NCBI RefSeq assembly: GCF_004362805.1
Contig: NZ_SNYF01000008.1
Span: 124,001 to 188,000, forward strand
DNA: 64,000 bases
Origin: Algoriphagus boseongensis
GTDB taxonomy: Bacteria; Bacteroidota; Bacteroidia; Cytophagales; Cyclobacteriaceae
Direction: 5' to 3'
Positions 27,114 through 37,262 of the stretch are shown here, in pieces. The position numbers and the translations under genes were made by a program. The notes under the pieces are model-generated. The model worked only from the letters and a program-made list of their open reading frames with translations, was not told the DNA's origin and did not search any database. The first letter of the stretch is position 1; each line of letters opens with the position of its first letter.

Positions 27114-28055
27114 TTACTCCCCTTTGCTTAGAAACTTATTTACATCCAGCCAGTGAATAAATGCGTCAAACCAACGGTTACTGGTTCGGTTGGGATTTCC
27201 AAGTCCGAAGCCATGACCTCCGTTTTGGTAGAGATGAAATTCCACTGGGATACCTGCTTTGAACCAGGAATCAATCACGCCAAACTGGCCGCGGAAAAGA
27301 AAATCATCCGAAGCGATCACGTTAAACATGGGAGGGGCATTTTTTGGAACTTCCACAGGCCCCATGCCTCCATAGATTGGACCGATAAAGGCCAATTTCA
27401 TTTTCTTGGAATTAAGGGTCGAATGCATGGTCAATCCAGCACCTGCTGAGAAGCCAATCATGCCAATTCTTTTGGTATCGACTCCCCATTCTTCAGCTCG
27501 ATCAAGGATCATCTGGTAAGCCGCCTCAGCATCTTCTAATTGGTTGGATAAATCCAAAGGAGGAGGAGGGGCTGTTTGTCCAGTGGATCCATCACCAGAT
27601 GGGGCAGGAGCAGGACGGGGGCGATTCATCCAAGCCGTAAAGTCGTCCAAAGATTCCGGAGTTGGGTGAAGGCGATATTTGAGAACAAATGCAGCGATTC
27701 CTTGCTTTGCCAATGCTTCTGCCACTTCCCATCCTTCATTTCCCATAGAAAGCCATCGGAATCCTCCTCCGGGAGCCACAATCACTGCTGCACCATTTGC
27801 TTTCCCAGGTTCTGGTAAAAAAGGAGTGAGGGTTGCAGTTGAAATATTCCTTGCCATGGGATCTCCCCATTGCCTAAACCAAGTTTCTTTAGCAGGTTGG
27901 TTTTCGACACCTCCCGTTCCTAATAAAATGGCTCTGGGTTCGGCAGGAGCCTCTAGAGGATAGATTGTGCCATCTTGGGCGAGGCTTGATCCTGCGATCA
28001 GGACCAAACATGCTAAAAGGAAATTCTTGGAGAATGAAATAAGTTTGGTGTACAT
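27114..28055 (-). CDS. Exported alpha/beta hydrolase, acetylxylan-esterase-like
   Basis: 313 residues with a signal peptide (SSLAQ). The oxyanion motif is APGGGFRW, the nucleophile elbow is IGFSAGAG, and the catalytic His is in NGGHGFG near the C-terminus; a candidate Asp is in NVIASDDFLF. A Pro-rich insert (about 148-170) sits after the first third. Such enzymes deacetylate xylans or other esterified glycans in the periplasm. It is a single gene, not in an obvious polysaccharide locus. The fold is firm and the substrate is inference. Confidence 0.86.
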   Translation of the reverse strand: MYTKLISFSKNFLLACLVLIAGSSLAQDGTIYPLEAPAEPRAILLGTGGVENQPAKETWFRQWGDPMARNISTATLTPFLPEPGKANGAAVIVAPGGGFRWLSMGNEGWEVAEALAKQGIAAFVLKYRLHPTPESLDDFTAWMNRPRPAPAPSGDGSTGQTAPPPPLDLSNQLEDAEAAYQMILDRAEEWGVDTKRIGMIGFSAGAGLTMHSTLNSKKMKLAFIGPIYGGMGPVEVPKNAPPMFNVIASDDFLFRGQFGVIDSWFKAGIPVEFHLYQNGGHGFGLGNPNRTSNRWFDAFIHWLDVNKFLSKGE

Positions 28056-28238: not shown

Positions 28239-30404
28239 TTAAATATTCGTTCGGGATTCAATATTTTCTACCTCAACTCCTAAATGCAGGAATTCCTCCT
28301 TCTTTTCCAATAGCATTTTTGAAAAAATCGGATTTACATCTCCTTCTTCATTTCGGGTTATAAATCCAAATTCGGTTCGTGATAGGAGGTTGACTATCCA
28401 AAGCATTTCAGTGGCACTTTTCAGGTCTGGAGCAATGCTTAAATCTGTTTCCGGAGCTAAAATCCCCTTTTTTTGGTCTCCATATCTTAATCCTACTCCA
28501 TTAAAAAGTAATTCTCCAAGTTCATCGTATTGATGTTCATTGATCCAGGTGTGAAGGTAAGTAGCCACAAAAATGATATACACACAGCAATCCTTGAGGT
28601 TTTTTATGTCTTCTGGAGACACATTTTCTGGGTTGTGGTGTTGGGTAATCGGGCTAACGGCTTTCAGCTCTCCTTTGATAGTTTCCCTTTTTTGATCAGG
28701 GTGAAATCCATATTTGAAACAGTAATAATCATATCGGTTTTGAACATGAGCTTTTAAATCGAGATCTAATTCATTCTTGTTAATATCTGATAAAAAGACT
28801 GGGACACTATGCTCCACCAAATCTTTGGAAAAACAATAAATCTCCAACCAGTATTTTTTTATTTCTTCTAAGTGATTATCTACAAATTGATGGACATATT
28901 TCTCAGTGATTTCCCAAAACATCCAATCTGTTTTAGCCACATCATGCGAAGGGCTAATCGGATCCATAGGTTGAAATCCTTTCCAGTCCTGCATTCCTAA
29001 AATATCTCTGGTTCTATCCTTTAGCCCCTTCTCTGTTAATGCGGTCGAATGAGGTAAAAAATCTTTGAGAAGGATTTTATCCGCACTATGGTTGATCAGC
29101 ACCACTTCTTTCAAATGAGGAAGGAGGAGATTGGCGATTGGGTTTATCCTTAGATTTCGATAGGCCGCTATCGCATACTGTTCTGTATTAAGATGAGTGC
29201 CTGTAAAGTGGTCATCGACTTCCGTACATAAGCTTCCGCTTACTCTGGCTATGCGTTTTGCAAATTCCCATTCCGTTCCGTCCTCAGGAGAAAATGACCT
29301 TTTGATCAAAGGATCTTTTTCAAACTTGTTTAGTGGTCCGGTTAAAATAATCTGGATCGGCAAGGGAAGGCCTTCTTCATCCAGCCGAAATTTAATTTCC
29401 GCATCTGGAAAAGCATAGATACCATTAGTTTCGTATTTGCAACTACCGAAATATTTGACCCAATATTCTCCTGGATGAGAAGAATCTGGGAAAAATGAAG
29501 CCCGGTTCATTCCATTCATCTGCCGGTGTCCAAAGTATTCGTCTGACCGGGTGTAGCCGGGGATTCTTTGTTCTATGCACCGGGATAGGTTGATTGGGTA
29601 ATCCTTTTGGATATAGTCCAAACTGATTTTTTTGGATCCCAGTTTAAGCAATTCCAAATGTTTGGCCTTAGTCAGTTCATAAGGGATGAATTGCTGGGCC
29701 AGTACATCTTGTCTGGCTTGGGAGTAATATTGAGGAGCATCTTTTTCCTTGTCTTTGATGACTACCCTTGGAGCGGGGTAATCATCGCGGTATTCCCAAA
29801 AATCCAATCTGAAATTTTCAAGGAGAAAGGATTCCGTTTTTAAATCATCTTTTCGAACCCACATTTTGTGAAAAATCGAATAATGAGGGACTGCCTTATC
29901 TTCCTTGAAGTAGATGTGAGTTGTCTGGTAGACCTCCATTCGAAGATTAAAGTGAGCAGGAGATTTTGCTAGTTTTCGATCATAGCTAATTTCATATTCT
30001 CCCTGGTCGTTGGTCATGGCTTCTCCCAATTTTCTCCATTGGAACCACCAAGTTTTCGCCCAAAATTCAACCTGCATGTGGTGGATTGGTTTTGCCACAC
30101 CATCTTTCCTGGAAAAAGTTACTTTTCCACTAATCTTACTATCGAAATTCTTCCCGAAAACCCTTGCTCTTCTGGGAAAAAGAAAATCATGAAACCTTTG
30201 CACTTCAGATCGAATCTTCTTGAAGATCACATGGCCAAATTCAGCTAAAATTGTCAGCGGATTGGAAATGATTTTTGACCGACCCACTTCAATGTGATTG
30301 ATGCTTTTAAATCTTGGAGTAAAAAAGCCCCCTCGGTTTGGGTATTCAATTTTTGTTTCTTTCCTGCACTCCCGTATAATTTCTTTAATCTCTTGGTGGG
30401 TCAT
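28239..30404 (-). CDS. Lipoxygenase family protein with full iron-ligand set
   Basis: 721 residues. The C-terminal two thirds match lipoxygenases: WEFAKRIARVSG, then H399-x4-H404 in DDHFTGTHLNTEQY, then RINPIANLLLPHLKEV (the conserved PIxxLLxPH helix), H618-x3-N622 in LHTWINEHQY, and a C-terminal isoleucine (I721). Together these are the five iron ligands of soybean and animal enzymes. The enzyme should oxygenate polyunsaturated fatty acids to hydroperoxides. In place of the PLAT domain the N-terminus has a beta-sandwich of carboxypeptidase-regulatory or transthyretin-like type (about 70-150). There is no signal peptide. It is divergent from the lipoxygenase-like and kinase-cyclase operon. 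Substrate and position specificity are not readable. Confidence 0.85.
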   Translation of the reverse strand: MTHQEIKEIIRECRKETKIEYPNRGGFFTPRFKSINHIEVGRSKIISNPLTILAEFGHVIFKKIRSEVQRFHDFLFPRRARVFGKNFDSKISGKVTFSRKDGVAKPIHHMQVEFWAKTWWFQWRKLGEAMTNDQGEYEISYDRKLAKSPAHFNLRMEVYQTTHIYFKEDKAVPHYSIFHKMWVRKDDLKTESFLLENFRLDFWEYRDDYPAPRVVIKDKEKDAPQYYSQARQDVLAQQFIPYELTKAKHLELLKLGSKKISLDYIQKDYPINLSRCIEQRIPGYTRSDEYFGHRQMNGMNRASFFPDSSHPGEYWVKYFGSCKYETNGIYAFPDAEIKFRLDEEGLPLPIQIILTGPLNKFEKDPLIKRSFSPEDGTEWEFAKRIARVSGSLCTEVDDHFTGTHLNTEQYAIAAYRNLRINPIANLLLPHLKEVVLINHSADKILLKDFLPHSTALTEKGLKDRTRDILGMQDWKGFQPMDPISPSHDVAKTDWMFWEITEKYVHQFVDNHLEEIKKYWLEIYCFSKDLVEHSVPVFLSDINKNELDLDLKAHVQNRYDYYCFKYGFHPDQKRETIKGELKAVSPITQHHNPENVSPEDIKNLKDCCVYIIFVATYLHTWINEHQYDELGELLFNGVGLRYGDQKKGILAPETDLSIAPDLKSATEMLWIVNLLSRTEFGFITRNEEGDVNPIFSKMLLEKKEEFLHLGVEVENIESRTNI

Positions 30405-30713
30405 TTGGATTTGTTGATTTCAAAATTGTCTTTCCCAGATATTTCTGGTTCAAATAAGGTCTTCTTTGGGAATCAAAATGCTTCTTCTGAAAATAGTTCT
30501 TTTGCACTTAATTGAATAACTTCTTTCCTTGATGAATAAATTATTTTTTACTGAGCTTCTCCTGGATCTTTGGAAAAAATTCAAATCCTGAAATTTTTAC
30601 TTATCTTTTTGATCAAATGGAATCTTTAATTTTGATAGTATCCTATCCCAATTGAGTTTTAAATCAAGTACCTTTTTCAAAGAAGTTGTCCATTCATCAC
30701 CCAGTTTATTGTC
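30405..30713. other. Divergent spacer between the two lipoxygenase-like genes
   Basis: A gap of 309 AT-rich bases with no credible gene. A 118-codon minus-strand frame overlapping 30597-30953 is an antisense shadow. Promoters for both directions must lie here. One plus-strand candidate is the separate entry at 30609-30634. Confidence 0.6.
30609..30634 (+). promoter_or_regulatory. Candidate Bacteroidota promoter for the lipoxygenase-like/kinase operon
   Basis: TAATTTTG at 30627-30634 fits the -7 consensus TAnnTTTG. A TTG at 30609-30611, 15 bases upstream, is a slightly close -33 element. The start codon follows about 80 bases later. AT-rich sequence makes chance matches likely. Confidence 0.3.
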
Positions 30714-32132
30714 ATGAATCAACCTAAATATCTTTACGACCGAAAAGGTCCCTGGCCGCAGCCAAGTCCATCTCATCCTTTTGGAGAGGCCCCAGCAGTA
30801 GTTCATATCCCTAAAGATGAGCAGCGCACCTGGTTTTGGAATATCGGGTTTCGTTATATCAGAAATATTCTGTTTTATTGGCCAAAGGCAGTTTGGAAAG
30901 CTTGGCAGAATCCAACTTGGGAAATATTGGATGATGATGTTTTTTGTGATCAAATCTACACCACCCCACTAGCGAAATTTCTCAACCCAACGATTGACCC
31001 AGATCTACAGGAGATATTCGAGGCTCAACTTGCAGAAAAAGACCGCGATTCCACCTATTTCGTTGCAGATTTCAGATGTATGCAAAATGTAGTCCCTTTC
31101 AAGGGAATGTATGTTGCCTCAACTGCGGTATTGATGAGTAAGCATAAAGATGAGTCAAAGCTAAAGATTCATGCTATCTACATTTTTGAAACAAAGCTAC
31201 TGCTCCTACCAACTGATGGCCAAGCTTGGGACCTTGCCAAGAACTTTGCTATGATGGGTGCTACTTATCGGATTCTACTTTCTACACATCCGATTCTTCA
31301 TTTTCCCTTTGATACAGTCAATGCAATTACCAAAACGGCTTTACCCGTGGATAATACTGTTTTCAAATTGCTTTACCCTCATTTTCAGTTTACGTTGACG
31401 CTCAATGATTCGGTTTTGGAAAGTAAAAGCTCCCCGGTGTATAATGATCAAAAATATCCTTTCACAGGTTTTTGCGGTCCTCAAGATGGATTACTTACCC
31501 TCTTAGAATCTGGATACGCGGGGATTGAAGGTAATTCTTCCTATCCCAAGTTTAAATGGGATATTTACCCTACGGAGGTGTTTTCAGATTACAATGTCTA
31601 CCTAATGGAGTATTACCAGGCATTCAAGCGATTTACGGATGGAGTAGTCAAAAATATTCCTTCAGATGAAATTCAGGATATTAAAATATGGGCGGATTAT
31701 ATTTCAGATTGGTTGCCGGGATTTCCCAATGGGGAAAAAATTATGGAAGGGGATTTATTGTCCGGATGTTTGGCAAAAATCATGTGGGATCTTTCTGTAG
31801 CTCATGCTACTGACCATCATTCCTATGGAACGATCCCGATTAATAGGCTACCTTTACGGATGAGAGTACCACCTCCATCTAGCAAAAAAGACACGTTTAA
31901 CGTGAAGGATCAGGCAAAATTTATAGACGTTTTCAAATATGCTCTTGAATGGAAATTGTTTTTCAATGATCATACAGTGACCAAATTGATTGATGTAGAC
32001 TATAAATTCCAAACCCCAGAGCTCCAAAAACTTCAGACTAATTTTCTGCAGGATTTGGAATTGGTAGATCTTCATATGCCGGTCAAAAAATATATGGATT
32101 TGAATGAAATCTCAATAAGTATTCAGTTTTAA
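30714..32132 (+). CDS. Divergent lipoxygenase-like protein with altered metal ligands
   Basis: 472 residues, no signal peptide. The lipoxygenase core is recognisable: KIHAIYIFET, AWDLAKNFAMMGATYR, then STHPILHFPFD, VFKLLYPHFQFTLTLN, and later SVAHATDHHSY. H192 aligns with the second His of the usual H-x4-H pair, but the first position is Ile187; the next His is H196, giving H-x3-H. H364-x3-H368 fits the second pair as in mammalian 15-lipoxygenase. The C-terminus reads SISIQF, two residues beyond the usual terminal Ile. It may bind metal differently or be a non-catalytic lipid sensor. It starts an operon, six bases before the kinase-cyclase gene. Confidence 0.78.
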   Translation: MNQPKYLYDRKGPWPQPSPSHPFGEAPAVVHIPKDEQRTWFWNIGFRYIRNILFYWPKAVWKAWQNPTWEILDDDVFCDQIYTTPLAKFLNPTIDPDLQEIFEAQLAEKDRDSTYFVADFRCMQNVVPFKGMYVASTAVLMSKHKDESKLKIHAIYIFETKLLLLPTDGQAWDLAKNFAMMGATYRILLSTHPILHFPFDTVNAITKTALPVDNTVFKLLYPHFQFTLTLNDSVLESKSSPVYNDQKYPFTGFCGPQDGLLTLLESGYAGIEGNSSYPKFKWDIYPTEVFSDYNVYLMEYYQAFKRFTDGVVKNIPSDEIQDIKIWADYISDWLPGFPNGEKIMEGDLLSGCLAKIMWDLSVAHATDHHSYGTIPINRLPLRMRVPPPSSKKDTFNVKDQAKFIDVFKYALEWKLFFNDHTVTKLIDVDYKFQTPELQKLQTNFLQDLELVDLHMPVKKYMDLNEISISIQF

Positions 32133-32138
32133 CTTTTT

Positions 32139-35100
32139 ATGGTTAGGCTTCCTAATAGTACGTTTAAGGAAAACAAGAATTATCTCTTTTTCAGGGATTT
32201 TGATGTGGAGGCCAATTGTGAGGTGATCTACAAGATTCCTAATGAAGCAAATGGAAGCCTAGAGGAATTAGAAAGACTTAAAAATGAGCTGGATATAAGC
32301 GTTTCTATCCACTCGCCAAGAATAGTCCGGGCAATCCGCATTGATAGAGCTGGTGAAAAACAAGTCCTGGTCAGAACCTTTATCAACGGAGAAGACCTAC
32401 AGGAAAAAACATTCGAGTTTTTTAAGGATTTTTCTCAAATCATTCGTCTATCCATTCAAATTGCTGAAGCTTTAAAGGACCTGCATGACTCGGGAGTTTT
32501 TCATAAGGACATCAAGCCGAGCAATATTATTTTTAATGAAAAAACCGGATTAGCAACGCTAATCGATTTAGGAATCGGCCAAAAAATCGGTGAGGTTCAA
32601 AAATTTCCAGAAAGGGAAGATTTGGATGGGACTTTGGATTTTATTTCTCCAGAGCAAACCGGCAGGGTCAATAGACAAGTGGATTTCCGAACTGATTTTT
32701 ATTCGGCCGGGATTACCCTTTTCTATTTGGCAAGTGGGAAGCTTCCTTATTCCGGAGAAGAAAGCCTTTCCTTAATCCATCAACATATTGCTGCGGAGAT
32801 TCCCTTTTTGCACATTCATTTTCCACATGTTCCGGTTCTCTATTCGAGGATTGTAGCCAAGTTAATGGCTAAAAATCCGGATGACAGATACCAAAGTGCT
32901 TCGGGTTTGCTGTTTGATTTATTCAAATGCGAAGAGCTCTTTGGGATTGAGCTTCCCCCCATCGATGAGGCTACCTATAAGCTTGGACAATTTGATGTCA
33001 GTACGGAATTGAAAATTCCTGAAAAGCTGTATGGAAGGGAGAAAGAAATCCAGATTTTGGAAAGGACGTTTGATCGGTTTCATGATTTCGTTCAACCTCT
33101 CATCCTGATACAGGGCACCTCTGGGTCAGGAAAAACAGCCTTAGCCCTTAGACTCAAAGAAATTGCCTTTCGCCACGGAAGTTTTTTTCTCGAAGGTAAA
33201 TATGATCATTTACAGAAAAGTATTCCCTATTCTGCGATCATCAATGCGCTTCAGGCGCATGTGGAGAATTTGCTCCTGGAGGAAAATGAACGAGTAGAAT
33301 TTTGGACAAAACGGATTCAAAAAGCACTGGGAAGATCCGGAAAGGTAATCACTGATATTCTCCCTAACCTCGAATTATTAATTGGTCAGCAGGAAGAAAT
33401 TCCAGTTTTAAGTGGTACTGAAAGCCAAAACCGATTCAATAACGTCATGGTGAAGTTCATCAGATCCCTTGGGACTGAGGATCATCCTACTGTCCTTTTG
33501 ATAGATGATTTGCAATGGGCTGATTTGGGCTCTATTACGATTTTGCAGATTCTTCTTCAAGAGTCTTCCAATTCAGAAATCCTAATTGTTGGCACTTATA
33601 GGGATAATGAAGTTCATGAAGCGCATCCTTTGACTATCATGTTACGGTCTCTTGCTAATTCGGGTCTGAATCCAGTCGAAATCGTATTAGGAGACTTGGA
33701 ACTGGAATCTGTCATAGAGCTTTGCCAAGATAGCTTTGGAAAGGATAGCCCGGGAGTGGAGGAATTGGCTTCAATCATTTATCAAAAAACCAATGGTAAC
33801 GCCTTTTTTACACGCCAGCTTCTGAAAGGTCTGTATGAGGAAGGTACCATTTCCATCAATCCCAAGACCAGACACTGGAGATGGGATATCCAAAAAATAA
33901 TCCAGACAGAGTCCTCCCAGAATGTGGTGGATTACATGACAGCCAAGTTGTCGAGACTGACCTCGGAAGGAGCTTCCGTTTTAAAATATGCTGCTTGTTT
34001 AGGTAATTCTTTCGACCGAACAGTGTTGGAAAATATCAGCTCTATGTCTTTGGATCTTTTCGACAAAGGGATGGATGAGGTCTTGATCAATGGCCTATTG
34101 ATCAGAATGGTAGGCCTGAAAGAAAAGAGCAATAATTACCTTTTTGCCCACGACAGAATTCAACAGGCAGCATATTCCGGGCTTTCTGAGGAAGAAAAAA
34201 GTAAAATTCACCTCAAAATAGGAAGGTATTTATTAGCAGAACAGGAGGATGAAGAAAGGGTCGAATGGAAGTTTGATATTGTTGACCATCTCAATAACGG
34301 CAGGGATAGTATAGCCGAAGAATCTGAAAAGAGGCTTTTGATTCAGATGAACATTCAGGCTGCTGAAATGGCTAAAAACTCTGCTGCCTATGATTTTGGA
34401 TTGAAATATGCAAAAATCGGCTTATCGCTTTTGCCTTCGAATCACTGGGAATCCGATTATGATCGGGCTCTGGCATTGTACAATGAAATTGCGGAAAATG
34501 CCTTTTTGAAAACCGATTTTGTGGAGGCCCATCAATACATTGATGAGATTTTAAATCATGTTCACTCTTTATTAGAAACAGAGACGGCCTATAAAATCCG
34601 AGTTTTGGCCTACCATGCCCAAAACCAATTGCTCAAAAGTATTTATAGTGGATTGGAGTTTTTGGAAAAACTGGGAATCGACCTTCCCAAAAATCCCGGA
34701 AAGCCTACCATTATCAAATCCTTCCTGGAAGCTAGATGGGTATTAAGAAATGAGACAATTGAGTCGCTATACCATAAGCCACTCATGTCTGATCCGGAAA
34801 AACTTGCTGCCATTCGGATGCTTACCTACCTCAATGGGCCTACCTATGTAGGATTGCCTAATATGAATCCCATTTTAATCTTTGAGCAGGTAAAGCTTTC
34901 TGTCAGATATGGAAATACGCCCGCATCATCCAGTGGCTATGGGGGCTATGGTTTGGTCCTTTGTGGGCTTACTGGAGAAATGCAGCTGGGGGCTAAATTT
35001 GCCCAGCTAGCCCGAGACATAGTAGAGAAGTATGATGCCAGGGAGGAATTTCCAAAGGCTCACCTAATTACTAATGTGTTTGTTAGGCATTGGACAATGC

Positions 35101-37262
35101 CGCTGCTCAAATCACAAGAGACCACTGGTGAAATCTATATAAAGGGGGTAGAGGTAGGGGATTATGTTTTTGCTGCCTATGGGGCCGAAGTGTACTGCTT
35201 TATGCAGTTCTTCGCAGGTACGCCCTTACCCCAATTTTATGAGGAAGTGGAGACGTATGATCATGCGGTACTCAATATTATTCACCAAAGAAATACTGCT
35301 TTAGATGTGTCATCTATCAGGCAGATGATGGCGCACCTACAGGATCCCGACTTTCGTTCTGGCTCAATTCAAGGTAAATATTACGATTACGAAAAAACAT
35401 TTGATTACCAAAAAAGCACAAATGCGCTAAATGGGATTTTTAAATCCTCGGTATATCAAATGATCATGTATTTTCTATTTGAGCGATATGAACGGGCTGC
35501 TGTGATAGCCAGAAGAGCAGATTTTTATAGGGATGCTGGGATAGCCCTGTTTCATATTGGGGCTTTTTATTTTTACAAGGCTTTGATCATTTTAGCCTTA
35601 CTTCCAAAACTCTCGGGAAGAAAAAAACTAAAGGCAGAGGCAGAACTCAAACTATGCATTCAAAAGATCAAATGGTATAAAAAGAATGCCCCATTCTCAT
35701 ACGATAGCAAGTATAATTTGATCCTTGCGGAGATTAATCGAATTAGAGGAAATCATCATGCGGCTAGGGATTTCTATGAAAAATCAATTCAGGAAGCTAA
35801 AACAAACGGGCTGATGCATGAGAGTGCCTTGGCCTGTGAGCTCTATGCTGGGTATCTTAAATCCCTAGATTTGATGGAGTCTCATCGGTTTTTCCTTTCC
35901 AAAGCGATCACTACCTACAAAGCCTATGGTGCAAATTCAAAGGCAAATTTCCTAAGTGAAAAGTATCAGGAATTCGCGCAAACGCATTTCTCTCCGACCA
36001 GTAACTCAATATCTTCGACAAAAGGAACCTCCCTATCACATTTTAATCTCAACATGACTACCATTTACAAAGCCTCCCAGGTGATATCTGGAGAGATTGT
36101 ACTGAATGAATTGTTGAGAAAAATGATGGAGCTGCTATTGGAAAATGCAGGAGCAAATAAAGGATGGTTTTTGATCAAGGAAAAAGGGGAATGGTGGATT
36201 CGTGCTTCAAATGATCTCTCAAAAAAAGAAGGAAATAGTACGGATTTAATCGAATTGGCAAGTTTGCCTAGAGACCAACACCCACTTTCCCTGAAGATTG
36301 TCCAATATGTGGAGCGTACCCAAAAGCCCATGGTGTTGGGAGATGCATCCTCTTTGGGGAAATTTGTTTACAATGAGGATGTTATGCGCTTGGGTAGCAA
36401 GTCGATTTTTTGTACTCCTATCATCAACCAAGGGAAAATTTTGGGGACCATTTACTTGGTAAATGATCTAATTACCAATGCATTTACGGAGGAAAATGTG
36501 GAGTTGCTCAATTTACTTTCTTCTCAGTTGTCCATTTCTCTCCAAAATGCCTTGCTTTATGATAGTCTGGAATCACAGGTAAAGGAGCGGACATATGACC
36601 TAATGAAAGAAAGAGATCTTTCGGAAACCTTGCTAAAAAATATTCTTCCTTCCAAAGTAGCTGAAGAACTCAAAACTCGTGGCGTAGTAGAGCCAAAGCA
36701 TTTCCCAAAAGTAACTGTTCTGTTTACGGATTTTAAAGATTTTACAGAGCTTACAAAACACATCAGTCCTAAAAAATTGGTTGAAGAGTTGGATTATGTG
36801 TTTAGTAAATTTGATGAAATAAGTCTTAAGCATGGGATAGAGAAAATCAAAACTATTGGAGATTCCTATATGGCAGCTGGAGGAGTACCTCTTCCGGGAA
36901 TAAATGACGAAATCCGAGTAATTGAGGCGGCCTTGGAAATGACAGAATTTTTAGATTCCGTAAAAAAACAACGATTGGAGCAAGGAAGTGATTTTTATTT
37001 TCAAGCTAGGATAGGAATTCATACAGGGCCAGTAGTAGCAGGAGTAGTGGGTAAAAATAAGTTTGTCTACGATATCTGGGGAGCAACAGTAAATTTGGCG
37101 TCCCGAATTGAATCCTCGGGGCTTCCCGGAAAAGTGAATATTTCAGGAGATACCTATGAGTTGGTAAAAGATAAGTTTACCTGTGCTCACCGTGGCCAGA
37201 TTGATGTAAAAAGTTACAAGCAGGTAGATATGTATTTTGTCGATGGAAGAAAATTAACCTAA
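32139..37262 (+). CDS. Ser/Thr kinase - AAA ATPase - TPR - GAF - adenylate cyclase fusion
   Basis: 1707 residues, no membrane helix. Order: protein kinase (about 10-270) with catalytic HKDIKPSN (His122-Asp124), DLG in place of DFG, and the GTLDFISPEQTGR activation segment; AAA ATPase with Walker A GTSGSGKT (326-333) and Walker B VLLIDDLQWAD; a helical repeat region (about 700-1280); a GAF domain (about 1320-1480); a coiled coil; and a class III cyclase (about 1510-1700). Cyclase residues are metal Asp1531 and Asp1575, with Lys1571 and Asp1645 as base-selecting pair (adenylate type), plus Asn1652 and Arg1656. It resembles trifunctional kinase/ATPase/histidine kinases with the histidine kinase replaced by a cyclase. 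It should make cAMP under control of the other domains. Confidence 0.88.
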   Translation: MVRLPNSTFKENKNYLFFRDFDVEANCEVIYKIPNEANGSLEELERLKNELDISVSIHSPRIVRAIRIDRAGEKQVLVRTFINGEDLQEKTFEFFKDFSQIIRLSIQIAEALKDLHDSGVFHKDIKPSNIIFNEKTGLATLIDLGIGQKIGEVQKFPEREDLDGTLDFISPEQTGRVNRQVDFRTDFYSAGITLFYLASGKLPYSGEESLSLIHQHIAAEIPFLHIHFPHVPVLYSRIVAKLMAKNPDDRYQSASGLLFDLFKCEELFGIELPPIDEATYKLGQFDVSTELKIPEKLYGREKEIQILERTFDRFHDFVQPLILIQGTSGSGKTALALRLKEIAFRHGSFFLEGKYDHLQKSIPYSAIINALQAHVENLLLEENERVEFWTKRIQKALGRSGKVITDILPNLELLIGQQEEIPVLSGTESQNRFNNVMVKFIRSLGTEDHPTVLLIDDLQWADLGSITILQILLQESSNSEILIVGTYRDNEVHEAHPLTIMLRSLANSGLNPVEIVLGDLELESVIELCQDSFGKDSPGVEELASIIYQKTNGNAFFTRQLLKGLYEEGTISINPKTRHWRWDIQKIIQTESSQNVVDYMTAKLSRLTSEGASVLKYAACLGNSFDRTVLENISSMSLDLFDKGMDEVLINGLLIRMVGLKEKSNNYLFAHDRIQQAAYSGLSEEEKSKIHLKIGRYLLAEQEDEERVEWKFDIVDHLNNGRDSIAEESEKRLLIQMNIQAAEMAKNSAAYDFGLKYAKIGLSLLPSNHWESDYDRALALYNEIAENAFLKTDFVEAHQYIDEILNHVHSLLETETAYKIRVLAYHAQNQLLKSIYSGLEFLEKLGIDLPKNPGKPTIIKSFLEARWVLRNETIESLYHKPLMSDPEKLAAIRMLTYLNGPTYVGLPNMNPILIFEQVKLSVRYGNTPASSSGYGGYGLVLCGLTGEMQLGAKFAQLARDIVEKYDAREEFPKAHLITNVFVRHWTMPLLKSQETTGEIYIKGVEVGDYVFAAYGAEVYCFMQFFAGTPLPQFYEEVETYDHAVLNIIHQRNTALDVSSIRQMMAHLQDPDFRSGSIQGKYYDYEKTFDYQKSTNALNGIFKSSVYQMIMYFLFERYERAAVIARRADFYRDAGIALFHIGAFYFYKALIILALLPKLSGRKKLKAEAELKLCIQKIKWYKKNAPFSYDSKYNLILAEINRIRGNHHAARDFYEKSIQEAKTNGLMHESALACELYAGYLKSLDLMESHRFFLSKAITTYKAYGANSKANFLSEKYQEFAQTHFSPTSNSISSTKGTSLSHFNLNMTTIYKASQVISGEIVLNELLRKMMELLLENAGANKGWFLIKEKGEWWIRASNDLSKKEGNSTDLIELASLPRDQHPLSLKIVQYVERTQKPMVLGDASSLGKFVYNEDVMRLGSKSIFCTPIINQGKILGTIYLVNDLITNAFTEENVELLNLLSSQLSISLQNALLYDSLESQVKERTYDLMKERDLSETLLKNILPSKVAEELKTRGVVEPKHFPKVTVLFTDFKDFTELTKHISPKKLVEELDYVFSKFDEISLKHGIEKIKTIGDSYMAAGGVPLPGINDEIRVIEAALEMTEFLDSVKKQRLEQGSDFYFQARIGIHTGPVVAGVVGKNKFVYDIWGATVNLASRIESSGLPGKVNISGDTYELVKDKFTCAHRGQIDVKSYKQVDMYFVDGRKLT

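Follow-up and report, generated by a model that had tools for sequence, protein, structure and literature searches.

We analysed a window of 64,000 nucleotides from Algoriphagus boseongensis (NCBI RefSeq assembly GCF_004362805.1, contig NZ_SNYF01000008.1, positions 124,001 to 188,000 of the forward strand) that carries a lipoxygenase gene (LOX1), a gene for a short divergent lipoxygenase-fold protein (LOX2) and a gene for a multidomain kinase–cyclase (KC). The coupling of KC-type proteins to oxygenases is well supported: in a sample of 71 KC loci from the same family, the Cyclobacteriaceae, 54 have an oxygenase or peroxidase gene within three genes of KC. We propose, at a little under even odds, that such loci encode an oxygenase-coupled signalling module in which the product of the oxygenase would be sensed by KC, which would then make cyclic AMP (cAMP). 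The ligand, and the direction of the signal from enzyme to KC, are what we infer from this coupling.

LOX1 (28239..30404, minus strand, 721 aa) faces LOX2 (30714..32132, plus strand, 472 aa; identified from the open reading frame (ORF) map and by profile searches), and the ATG of KC (32139..37262, plus strand, 1707 aa) follows the LOX2 stop codon after 6 nt on the same strand. A first-pass annotation of the sequence had given the same genes, strands and coordinates, and the ORF map bears them out. KC was described there as a kinase/AAA/GAF/cyclase protein, and all four Pfam domains indeed score above their cut-offs, in the order Pkinase, AAA_16, GAF and Guanylate_cyc: a protein kinase domain (aa 24-252, 32208..32894; PF00069, 96.8 bits), a STAND-type ATPase (aa 296-484, 33024..33590; PF13191, 113 bits) and, after a long middle region, a GAF domain (aa 1322-1468, 36102..36542; PF01590, 47.8 bits) and a class III cyclase domain (aa 1518-1702, 36690..37244; PF00211, 176 bits), all on the plus strand. 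The kinase residues K32, D124, N129 and D143 are present, as are Walker A and B in the ATPase. All six cyclase residues that we checked (D1531, K1571, D1575, D1645, N1652 and R1656) are present as well; we take two of the aspartates to bind metal, the lysine and the remaining aspartate to contact adenine, and the asparagine and arginine to act on the transition state, the lysine and aspartate presumably meaning ATP. By this residue check the domain is predicted to be a class III cyclase of the adenylate type, as had been proposed.

LOX1 exceeds the gathering score of the lipoxygenase family PF00305 (44.9 bits, cut-off 23.6). Its best PDB match is 5ek8 (named Lipoxygenase; presumably Cyanothece CspLOX2), at 323 bits and E 3.2e-95 over residues 90-721 (632 residues). 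In this alignment all five iron ligands fall into place, namely H399 and H404 (HxxxxH), H618 and N622 (HTWxN) and the C-terminal I721, and the five are identical in all six proteins aligned, so that the earlier description of LOX1 as carrying all its ligands holds. LOX1 should therefore be an active lipoxygenase. Its N-terminal region gave a sub-threshold match to TTR-52 and, in Pfam, no match to a PLAT domain. In the window genome a PF00305 search limited to E <= 0.001 returned no gene but LOX1; with the limit relaxed to E 0.05, LOX2 came up too. Lipoxygenases are rare in this group, as the first-pass annotation had supposed: 7 of 390 genomes of the order, the Cytophagales, hold one over the PF00305 cut-off, and LOX1 was not found in plasmid records.

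A LOX1 profile (E <= 1e-10) matched 8 of 295 family genomes. Seven of the eight have LOX1 at most two genes from a KC homologue, and the eighth (G1137) has, beside KC, a gene for a relative of the catalase-like allene oxide synthase (cAOS) of the coral cAOS–lipoxygenase fusion. One bacterial cAOS copy matched the coral enzyme (1u5u) at E 1.9e-59, and a five-row profile did so at E 2.6e-67; the two copies given to Pfam matched no family. The TH of the coral enzyme, which contains the distal histidine, is matched by SH in the bacterial proteins. Past the end of the printed alignment, the place of the proximal heme tyrosine, at the position that we presume for the coral enzyme, seems to read D/E in L020:4636-5772, L021:5243-6331 and L061:6812-8323. 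The order of the genes is KC-LOX1-cAOS in G015, G686 and G692, and LOX1-cAOS-KC in G1158, G1194 and G1344, while in the window LOX1 is divergent from LOX2-KC. Since the order varies in this way, the linkage is not one inherited string. Gaps between genes in the co-oriented loci range from -1 to 40 nt, with one of -29 from an extended start; here and in the neighbourhood tallies, gaps are counted from the last sense codon and are thus 3 nt larger than from the stop. Altogether LOX or cAOS is tied to the KC type in seven genera, and the pairing that the first-pass annotation saw in one strain therefore extends well beyond it.

The enzyme that accompanies LOX1 differs between loci. Among 14 genomes searched, cAOS occurs in eight: the seven LOX1-profile genomes other than the window's, plus G784, a LOX1-carrying genome that was found in the PF00305 search, apart from the profile set. 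A scan of 116 family genomes gave five strong cAOS matches, all in LOX1 genomes, and a sixth, marginal one (20.6 bits). cAOS was not found in the three genomes of the genus that carry LOX2 (the window's G000, and G001 and G004), nor in G487, G455 and G600; G001 is 89% complete and G600 82% complete, and in G686 the cAOS copy runs off its contig. Because LOX2 is found where cAOS is missing, we suggest that LOX2 may take the place of cAOS as second enzyme, acting on the product of LOX1. This amounts to a hint, short of proof, since the three LOX2 genomes come from one genus and count as one event. At its N-terminus the cAOS of G1137 (L061:6812-8323) is extended by a stretch matching LOX1's own N-terminal region (30 bits, profile 93-219), and thus LOX1 and cAOS share a domain.

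KC homologues (E <= 1e-100) occur in 62 of 290 family genomes, at 70 or more places, at most two candidates being scored per genome. All 70 places plus the locus of G004 made up the neighbourhood sample (n=71). The classes found within three genes of KC were MpaB/Lcp (PF09995; 18 loci), carotenoid-oxygenase-like (PF03055; 13), DyP-like (12), LOX/cAOS (9) and styrene-monooxygenase-like (2). In 39 of the 71 loci the oxygenase stands in an unbroken same-strand run with KC, with gaps of at most 150 nt (MpaB/Lcp 18, carotenoid-oxygenase-like 12, LOX/cAOS 9), and in a further 15 an oxygenase or peroxidase lies within three genes, outside such a run. DyP and flavin genes are never in a same-strand run with KC; DyP is two genes away. 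MpaB partners come from ten genera, LOX/cAOS and DyP partners from seven each, those of the carotenoid type from six and the flavin type from one. The MpaB, carotenoid oxygenase, DyP and styrene monooxygenase labels derive from hidden Markov models built on these same loci, and Pfam was run on 6 of 18, 6 of 13, 2 of 12 and 2 of 2 of these partners, respectively. MpaB/Lcp partners are accompanied by a DUF6989-type membrane gene in L067, L069-L072, L075, L077, L080, L081, L086-L089, L093 and L097, fused in L072, with an additional Pyr4-like terpene-cyclase-type gene in L067, L069, L071 and L088; for these two labels Pfam was run on L075, L072 and L069.

Seventeen of the 71 loci have no labelled class. 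Five of them carry a 500-aa lipoprotein-like gene (L074:10328-11830 and relatives) and three a 599-aa gene, accompanied by a 520-aa gene (L063:11497-14852, with relatives in L064 and L065); one member of each type was given to Pfam and PDB searches and matched neither. L062 has an amine-oxidase-like flavoprotein, and the remaining eight have other or no close neighbours. Two of these eight, L095 and L098, share a 238-aa gene; L098 (G000:C1:1490000-1494817) is a second KC homologue of the window genome itself, where KC begins 3 nt past the stop of the 238-aa gene and is followed by a glutathione-synthetase-like gene.

It could be argued that these neighbourhoods reflect chance or hitch-hiking, without any functional link. 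The genomes are related and neighbourhoods are heritable, and the DyP genes, two genes off, share no operon with KC. Gene order, however, differs between genera, and on a tree of the KC proteins the partner labels must have changed at least twice for LOX/cAOS, four times for MpaB, five times for the carotenoid type and twice for DyP. Over all labels we counted 14 changes, against a mean of 43 when the labels were shuffled. This tree (FastTree, 67 KCs, 4 of 71 rows of < 1500 aa being excluded) has weak deep branches and gave long-branch warnings. Its starred branches force the two LOX/cAOS changes, which could be two gains or a gain plus a loss. The KCs of the window and G004 sit together on a long branch, apart from the main clade of seven LOX/cAOS-linked KCs; a second, separate LOX-KC pairing is therefore likely, though not certain given the weak deep branches and the warnings. 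Controls covered PF09995 genes in 15 genomes and the spread of ORFs inside the fetched loci. The 15 genomes, chosen for a KC-MpaB pair, hold 23 PF09995 genes (one to three each), of which 15 are the KC partner; the window genome holds none. Of the 62 labelled ORFs in the fetched loci, 61 are no more than three genes from KC, and ORFs of all kinds spread much further, which is a check on spread only because the models were built from the same loci. On this evidence, an accidental association appears very improbable.

The domains of KC are not equally constant. The checked kinase residues are present in all nine LOX/cAOS-linked KCs, and all six cyclase residues are kept in six of them (those of the window, G004, G015, G686, G692 and G1137). 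In G1158 and G1194 HisKA and HATPase_c replace the cyclase by Pfam, and in G1344 (L039) the cyclase residues are lost in a protein of the same length as that of G1158. With three LOX-linked homologues lacking the cyclase, and two LOX-fold genes of other families adjoining a SpoIIE phosphatase, the output of a KC-type locus need not be cAMP. Because the output part can be either a cyclase or a histidine kinase and the ATPase is retained with both, KC behaves as would be expected of a receptor with exchangeable outputs, and the neighbourhood pattern would fit a KC receptor lying beside an enzyme that makes or clears its ligand.

The same observations bear on a serious rival, in which control runs in the reverse direction: KC would sense something else and regulate the oxygenases, either by phosphorylating them or by driving their expression through cAMP, lipid oxidation being the output. 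The intact kinase residues of the nine LOX/cAOS-linked KCs would suit this model, and the tight operons would fit co-regulation. So would an arrangement in G1137, in which a distant LOX gene (L040:4271-7647) directly follows a gene with cyclic nucleotide monophosphate (cNMP)-binding and HisKA domains. Elsewhere in that genome the cAOS gene (L061) comes immediately after a KC whose cyclase residues are complete, an arrangement which hints that cAMP may connect a cAOS-cyclase half with a LOX-cNMP-binding half. The cNMP-binding/HisKA gene also shows a weak match to a TIR-like FxsC N-terminus. Against the reverse direction stand the DyP-linked KCs, 11 of 12 of which (L105-L111 and L113-L116) have lost the kinase residues (D to N and N to H in the HRD motif, D to S in DFG) and keep complete cyclase residues, a pseudokinase with a live-looking cyclase; phosphorylation of the partner therefore cannot be the common function. 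In the twelfth, L085, the kinase residues and also two cyclase residues are lost. The swap of cyclase and histidine kinase outputs with the same type of partner speaks against this rival as well. We thus regard regulation of the enzymes by KC as rather unlikely, if still the alternative to be taken most seriously.

STAND ATPases and kinases also occur in defence systems, and KC might be a STAND protein that triggers membrane damage through lipid oxidation. PADLOC kinase models do match its kinase domain, but the best 25 of 37 PADLOC matches all lie in the generic kinase region, and LOX1, LOX2, one cAOS, one MpaB and one carotenoid-oxygenase protein had no PADLOC match. Seven window proteins were run against Pfam, and none resembles a mobile-element gene. 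A role in defence or conflict thus seems most improbable.

LOX2 is a more remote member of the lipoxygenase fold. It scored 14 bits against PF00305, under the cut-off of 23.6, as did its homologue in L022 (17.4 bits). A single-sequence phmmer search matched rabbit 15-LOX at E 1e-7, and a four-row profile matched human 5-LOX at E 1.5e-5, LOX2 residues 107-392, which hold both histidine clusters, pairing with chain residues 291-598. In this profile alignment H192 and H196 fall on the first-cluster histidines with one residue fewer between them, H364 on the second-cluster histidine and H368 on the asparagine; the ligands of 5-LOX we take to be H367, H372, H550 and N554. H192, H196, H364, D367 and H368 are identical in four LOX2 proteins, one of which is from another family and 47% identical. 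We propose H192, H196, H364, H368 and the C-terminal carboxylate (F472) as candidate ligands. LOX2 had been called an altered lipoxygenase, and two changes support this, HxxxH in place of HxxxxH in the first pair and an F/Y end in place of isoleucine in all four rows (SIQF in LOX2, SIQY in the distant homologue). The idea of a dead, ligand-less lipoxygenase, in contrast, is not borne out by the profile alignment, which keeps four histidines. Known lipoxygenases have a helix bulge with an extra residue at HxxxxH, and the HxxxH spacing would remove this residue, although the position of the one-residue gap in the first pair is not certain. In the accessible part of one report, an active Myxococcus fulvus lipoxygenase is printed with His372 and His376, that is, with three residues between them (PMC6612559), and HxxxH therefore need not mean inactivity.

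LOX2 is itself rare. It is present in 2 of 57 other related genomes searched (G001 and G004, both metagenome-assembled genomes (MAGs) of Algoriphagus), in 1 of 395 phylum genomes and 1 of 395 class genomes, both times the window's own, and in 1 of 13 genomes of the family of G487, that being G487 itself. A scan of genome contigs found the two Algoriphagus MAGs only; no LOX2 was seen among 72,556 plasmid records at E 0.01 or, by peptide patterns, in viral contigs. Downstream of LOX2 in G487, with 3 nt between stop and start codon, comes a gene whose product carries a SpoIIE phosphatase domain. In L023:4624-8850 (G455) and L024:907-2781 (G600) we noticed a third type of LOX-fold gene, whose product contains the string HVYHWH and terminates in SVEV or NIET. 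The gene in G455 stands 15 nt, stop to start, before one for a 7TMR-DISM-SpoIIE protein that is 38% identical to that of G487 over 349 residues; the G455 LOX-fold protein itself gave no BLASTP alignment with LOX2.

These features raise a different possibility for LOX2, that of a non-enzyme, lipid-binding receptor subunit that docks on KC, or in G487 on the SpoIIE phosphatase, and reports a free fatty acid or oxylipin. The changed ligand spacing and the C-terminus other than isoleucine are compatible with this, and LOX2 stands directly before a signalling gene in all three loci that show the downstream gene (at 6 nt in the window and G004, at 3 nt in G487). A pure binding protein would, however, have no need of the four metal-type histidines that are identical across two families, and the Myxococcus fulvus spacing, as printed in the accessible part of its report (PMC6612559), belongs to an active enzyme. 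We consider a non-catalytic LOX2 improbable, a little more so than the reverse direction of control.

Comparison of the window with the two other Algoriphagus genomes shows that the locus is maintained. The G001 contig carries LOX1-LOX2 in divergent orientation and stops after LOX2; that of G004 starts just upstream of LOX2 and shows the LOX2-KC junction with an identical 6-nt gap. The complete LOX1-LOX2-KC triad was thus read in the window only, and each junction recurs in one other Algoriphagus genome. Identities between the window and these genomes are 84-86% for LOX2, 76% for KC and 70% for LOX1, with synonymous sites saturated (proportion of synonymous differences, pS, about 0.8) and non-synonymous proportions (pN) of 0.09-0.18. 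The arrangement is not due to chance, since the order recurs in two genomes despite saturated synonymous sites. Against G001, LOX2 is 86% identical (pS 0.81, pN 0.09) and LOX1 70% (pS 0.85, pN 0.18), values that point to purifying selection on both genes, stronger on LOX2. As LOX2 is the better conserved of the two within one genome pair, it is not decaying. The intergenic region between LOX1 and LOX2 (30405..30713, 309 bp by the ORF map) presumably holds promoters for both directions; its mean column identity is 64% in an alignment of three genomes, in which no clear conserved motif, promoter or cAMP-receptor site was seen. Downstream of LOX1, 183 nt on and on the same strand, lies an esterase-like gene (27114-28055, minus strand; Abhydrolase_3 in Pfam) with a signal-peptide-like start by eye; in G001 this position holds a different gene.

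Several observations weigh against a module in which KC reads an oxygenase product. Gene neighbourhood is association and not direction, and KC could regulate the enzymes. The first-pass annotation had reckoned that a kinase–cyclase regularly lying next to other genes would speak against its idea, and literally this is the case, 62 of 71 loci being without LOX/cAOS, although in 45 of these 62 some other oxygenase or peroxidase gene lies no more than three genes away; we therefore see that idea as supported in part. G784 has LOX1-cAOS with no KC within the 32 kb read, and in G487, which has LOX2, neither LOX1 nor cAOS was found; LOX2 can therefore occur without a LOX1 partner, which also favours its being a receptor subunit. 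The assignment of LOX2 has its own weak points: the G487 homologue aligned to another lipoxygenase, 8x8f, with the second histidine of the first pair in place and the first shifted by one, an AlphaFold model of LOX2 from three close sequences gave a mean predicted local distance difference test (pLDDT) of 33, and hhalign of the LOX2 and LOX1 profiles was weak (probability 15), only the first-cluster region being aligned and the histidines unmatched. Finally, KC relatives reach cyanobacteria and rhizobia on plasmids (212 of 72,556 records at E <= 1e-60), and only 4 of 16 plasmid KC loci read have an oxidase, oxygenase or peroxidase near. The four are those of Rufibacter, where the divergent neighbour encodes an amine-oxidase-like protein, of Nostoc UHCC 0302, with a protein of this kind too, of Leptolyngbya, with a Rieske/VanA-type oxygenase, and of Bradyrhizobium, where a gene for a DyP-like peroxidase, with an SRPBCC gene after it, lies three genes from KC. 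The Bradyrhizobium DyP is 32% identical to that of L106, where the gene between DyP and KC has a Polyketide_cyc2 domain, presumably SRPBCC-type as well. The other 12 loci have response regulators, SDR, DsbA, transport, chemotaxis or other genes; among them, and uncounted, are an antibiotic biosynthesis monooxygenase gene further off in Gloeocapsopsis and an alkene reductase in Rhizobium ruizarguesonis. The oxygenase habit of KC is thus strong in the Cyclobacteriaceae and patchy outside.

The reading that we prefer, with KC downstream of the oxygenase, builds on the genes themselves, their conserved coupling, the intact residues of LOX1 and of the cyclase, and the occurrence of LOX2 where cAOS is missing; the substrate, the product, the role of KC as receptor and the direction of the signal are conjectural. 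LOX1 would oxidise polyunsaturated fat, probably imported from the surroundings, to a fatty-acid hydroperoxide. We propose this external source because no PfaD-type synthase gene for polyunsaturated fatty acids was found in the LOX1/LOX2 genomes of the family: in 11 such genomes no PfaD match exceeded the cut-off (G1158 gave a sub-threshold 21.6 bits), PfaD being the only such route searched. G487 carries PfaD at 668 bits. A second protein, cAOS in most loci and LOX2 in the window, would convert the hydroperoxide to the effective signal. The ATPase, middle region and GAF domain of KC would form the receptor, and KC would detect the product, or a complex of LOX2 with the product, and then switch on its adenylate cyclase.

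Slightly more tentatively, KC may stand for a general class of bacterial signalling, so far without a name, in which a single family of very large kinase-STAND-GAF receptors is repeatedly paired with enzymes oxidising hydrophobic molecules and would read out their products as cAMP or a phosphorelay. Its enzymes would be lipoxygenase with a cAOS-like protein or LOX2, carotenoid-cleavage-type oxygenases, MpaB/rubber-oxygenase-type enzymes, DyP peroxidases and flavin monooxygenases. LOX2 would then be a lipoxygenase-fold hydroperoxide-converting enzyme or a receptor, with a new spacing in its metal site. Should the wider pattern be confirmed, the Cyclobacteriaceae would commonly use the oxidation of carotenoids, isoprenoids and fatty acids as a sensory input, by a logic comparable to that of eicosanoid, retinoid and strigolactone signalling among eukaryotes. 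LOX1 and LOX2 are related to enzymes that produce the signals of inflammation in animals, and their tight, recurrent tie to a defined receptor-type protein, whose predicted output, cAMP, can be measured, opens the role of bacterial lipoxygenases to a direct test.

KC-type proteins are already known by annotation from plasmid records, and in the open-access literature we found no paper linking LOX, cAOS or other oxygenases with them. The nearest known lipoxygenase, 5ek8, is the best match of LOX1 with all ligands aligned, and differs in that LOX1 is tied to KC; we know of no signalling partner for 5ek8. The coral cAOS–lipoxygenase fusion (PDB 1u5u, 3dy5) is matched in both halves by the LOX1-cAOS gene pairs beside KC, whereas the bacterial genes are separate and joined by a sensor-type protein, the window lacks cAOS, and the presumed place of the heme tyrosine appears to be D/E. 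Trifunctional Ser/Thr kinase/ATP-binding/histidine kinase proteins of cyanobacteria and rhizobia resemble KC (tblastn, about 33% identity over 85% of KC on cyanobacterial plasmids), yet response regulators, SDR or transport genes are common beside them. KC matches the TOMM kinase/cyclase fusion model (TIGR03903) at 150.4 bits, below the equivalog cut-off of 705.75. The Myxococcus fulvus LOX1 shares the short first spacing with our LOX2; it has 676 aa and a second cluster of His549 and Asn553, and the accessible part of its report describes no KC partner (PMC6612559). The closest precedent in function is the oxylipin-dependent quorum sensing of P. aeruginosa with its receptor OdsR, where, as far as the accessible part of that report goes, oxylipins made from exogenous fatty acid act as signals and the genes of the enzymes are controlled by the receptor (PMC6377657). 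Both systems would use bacterial oxylipins as signals, proposed here from genes alone, but where P. aeruginosa employs diol synthases and a LysR-type regulator, the Algoriphagus locus would employ a lipoxygenase and a STAND kinase–cyclase.

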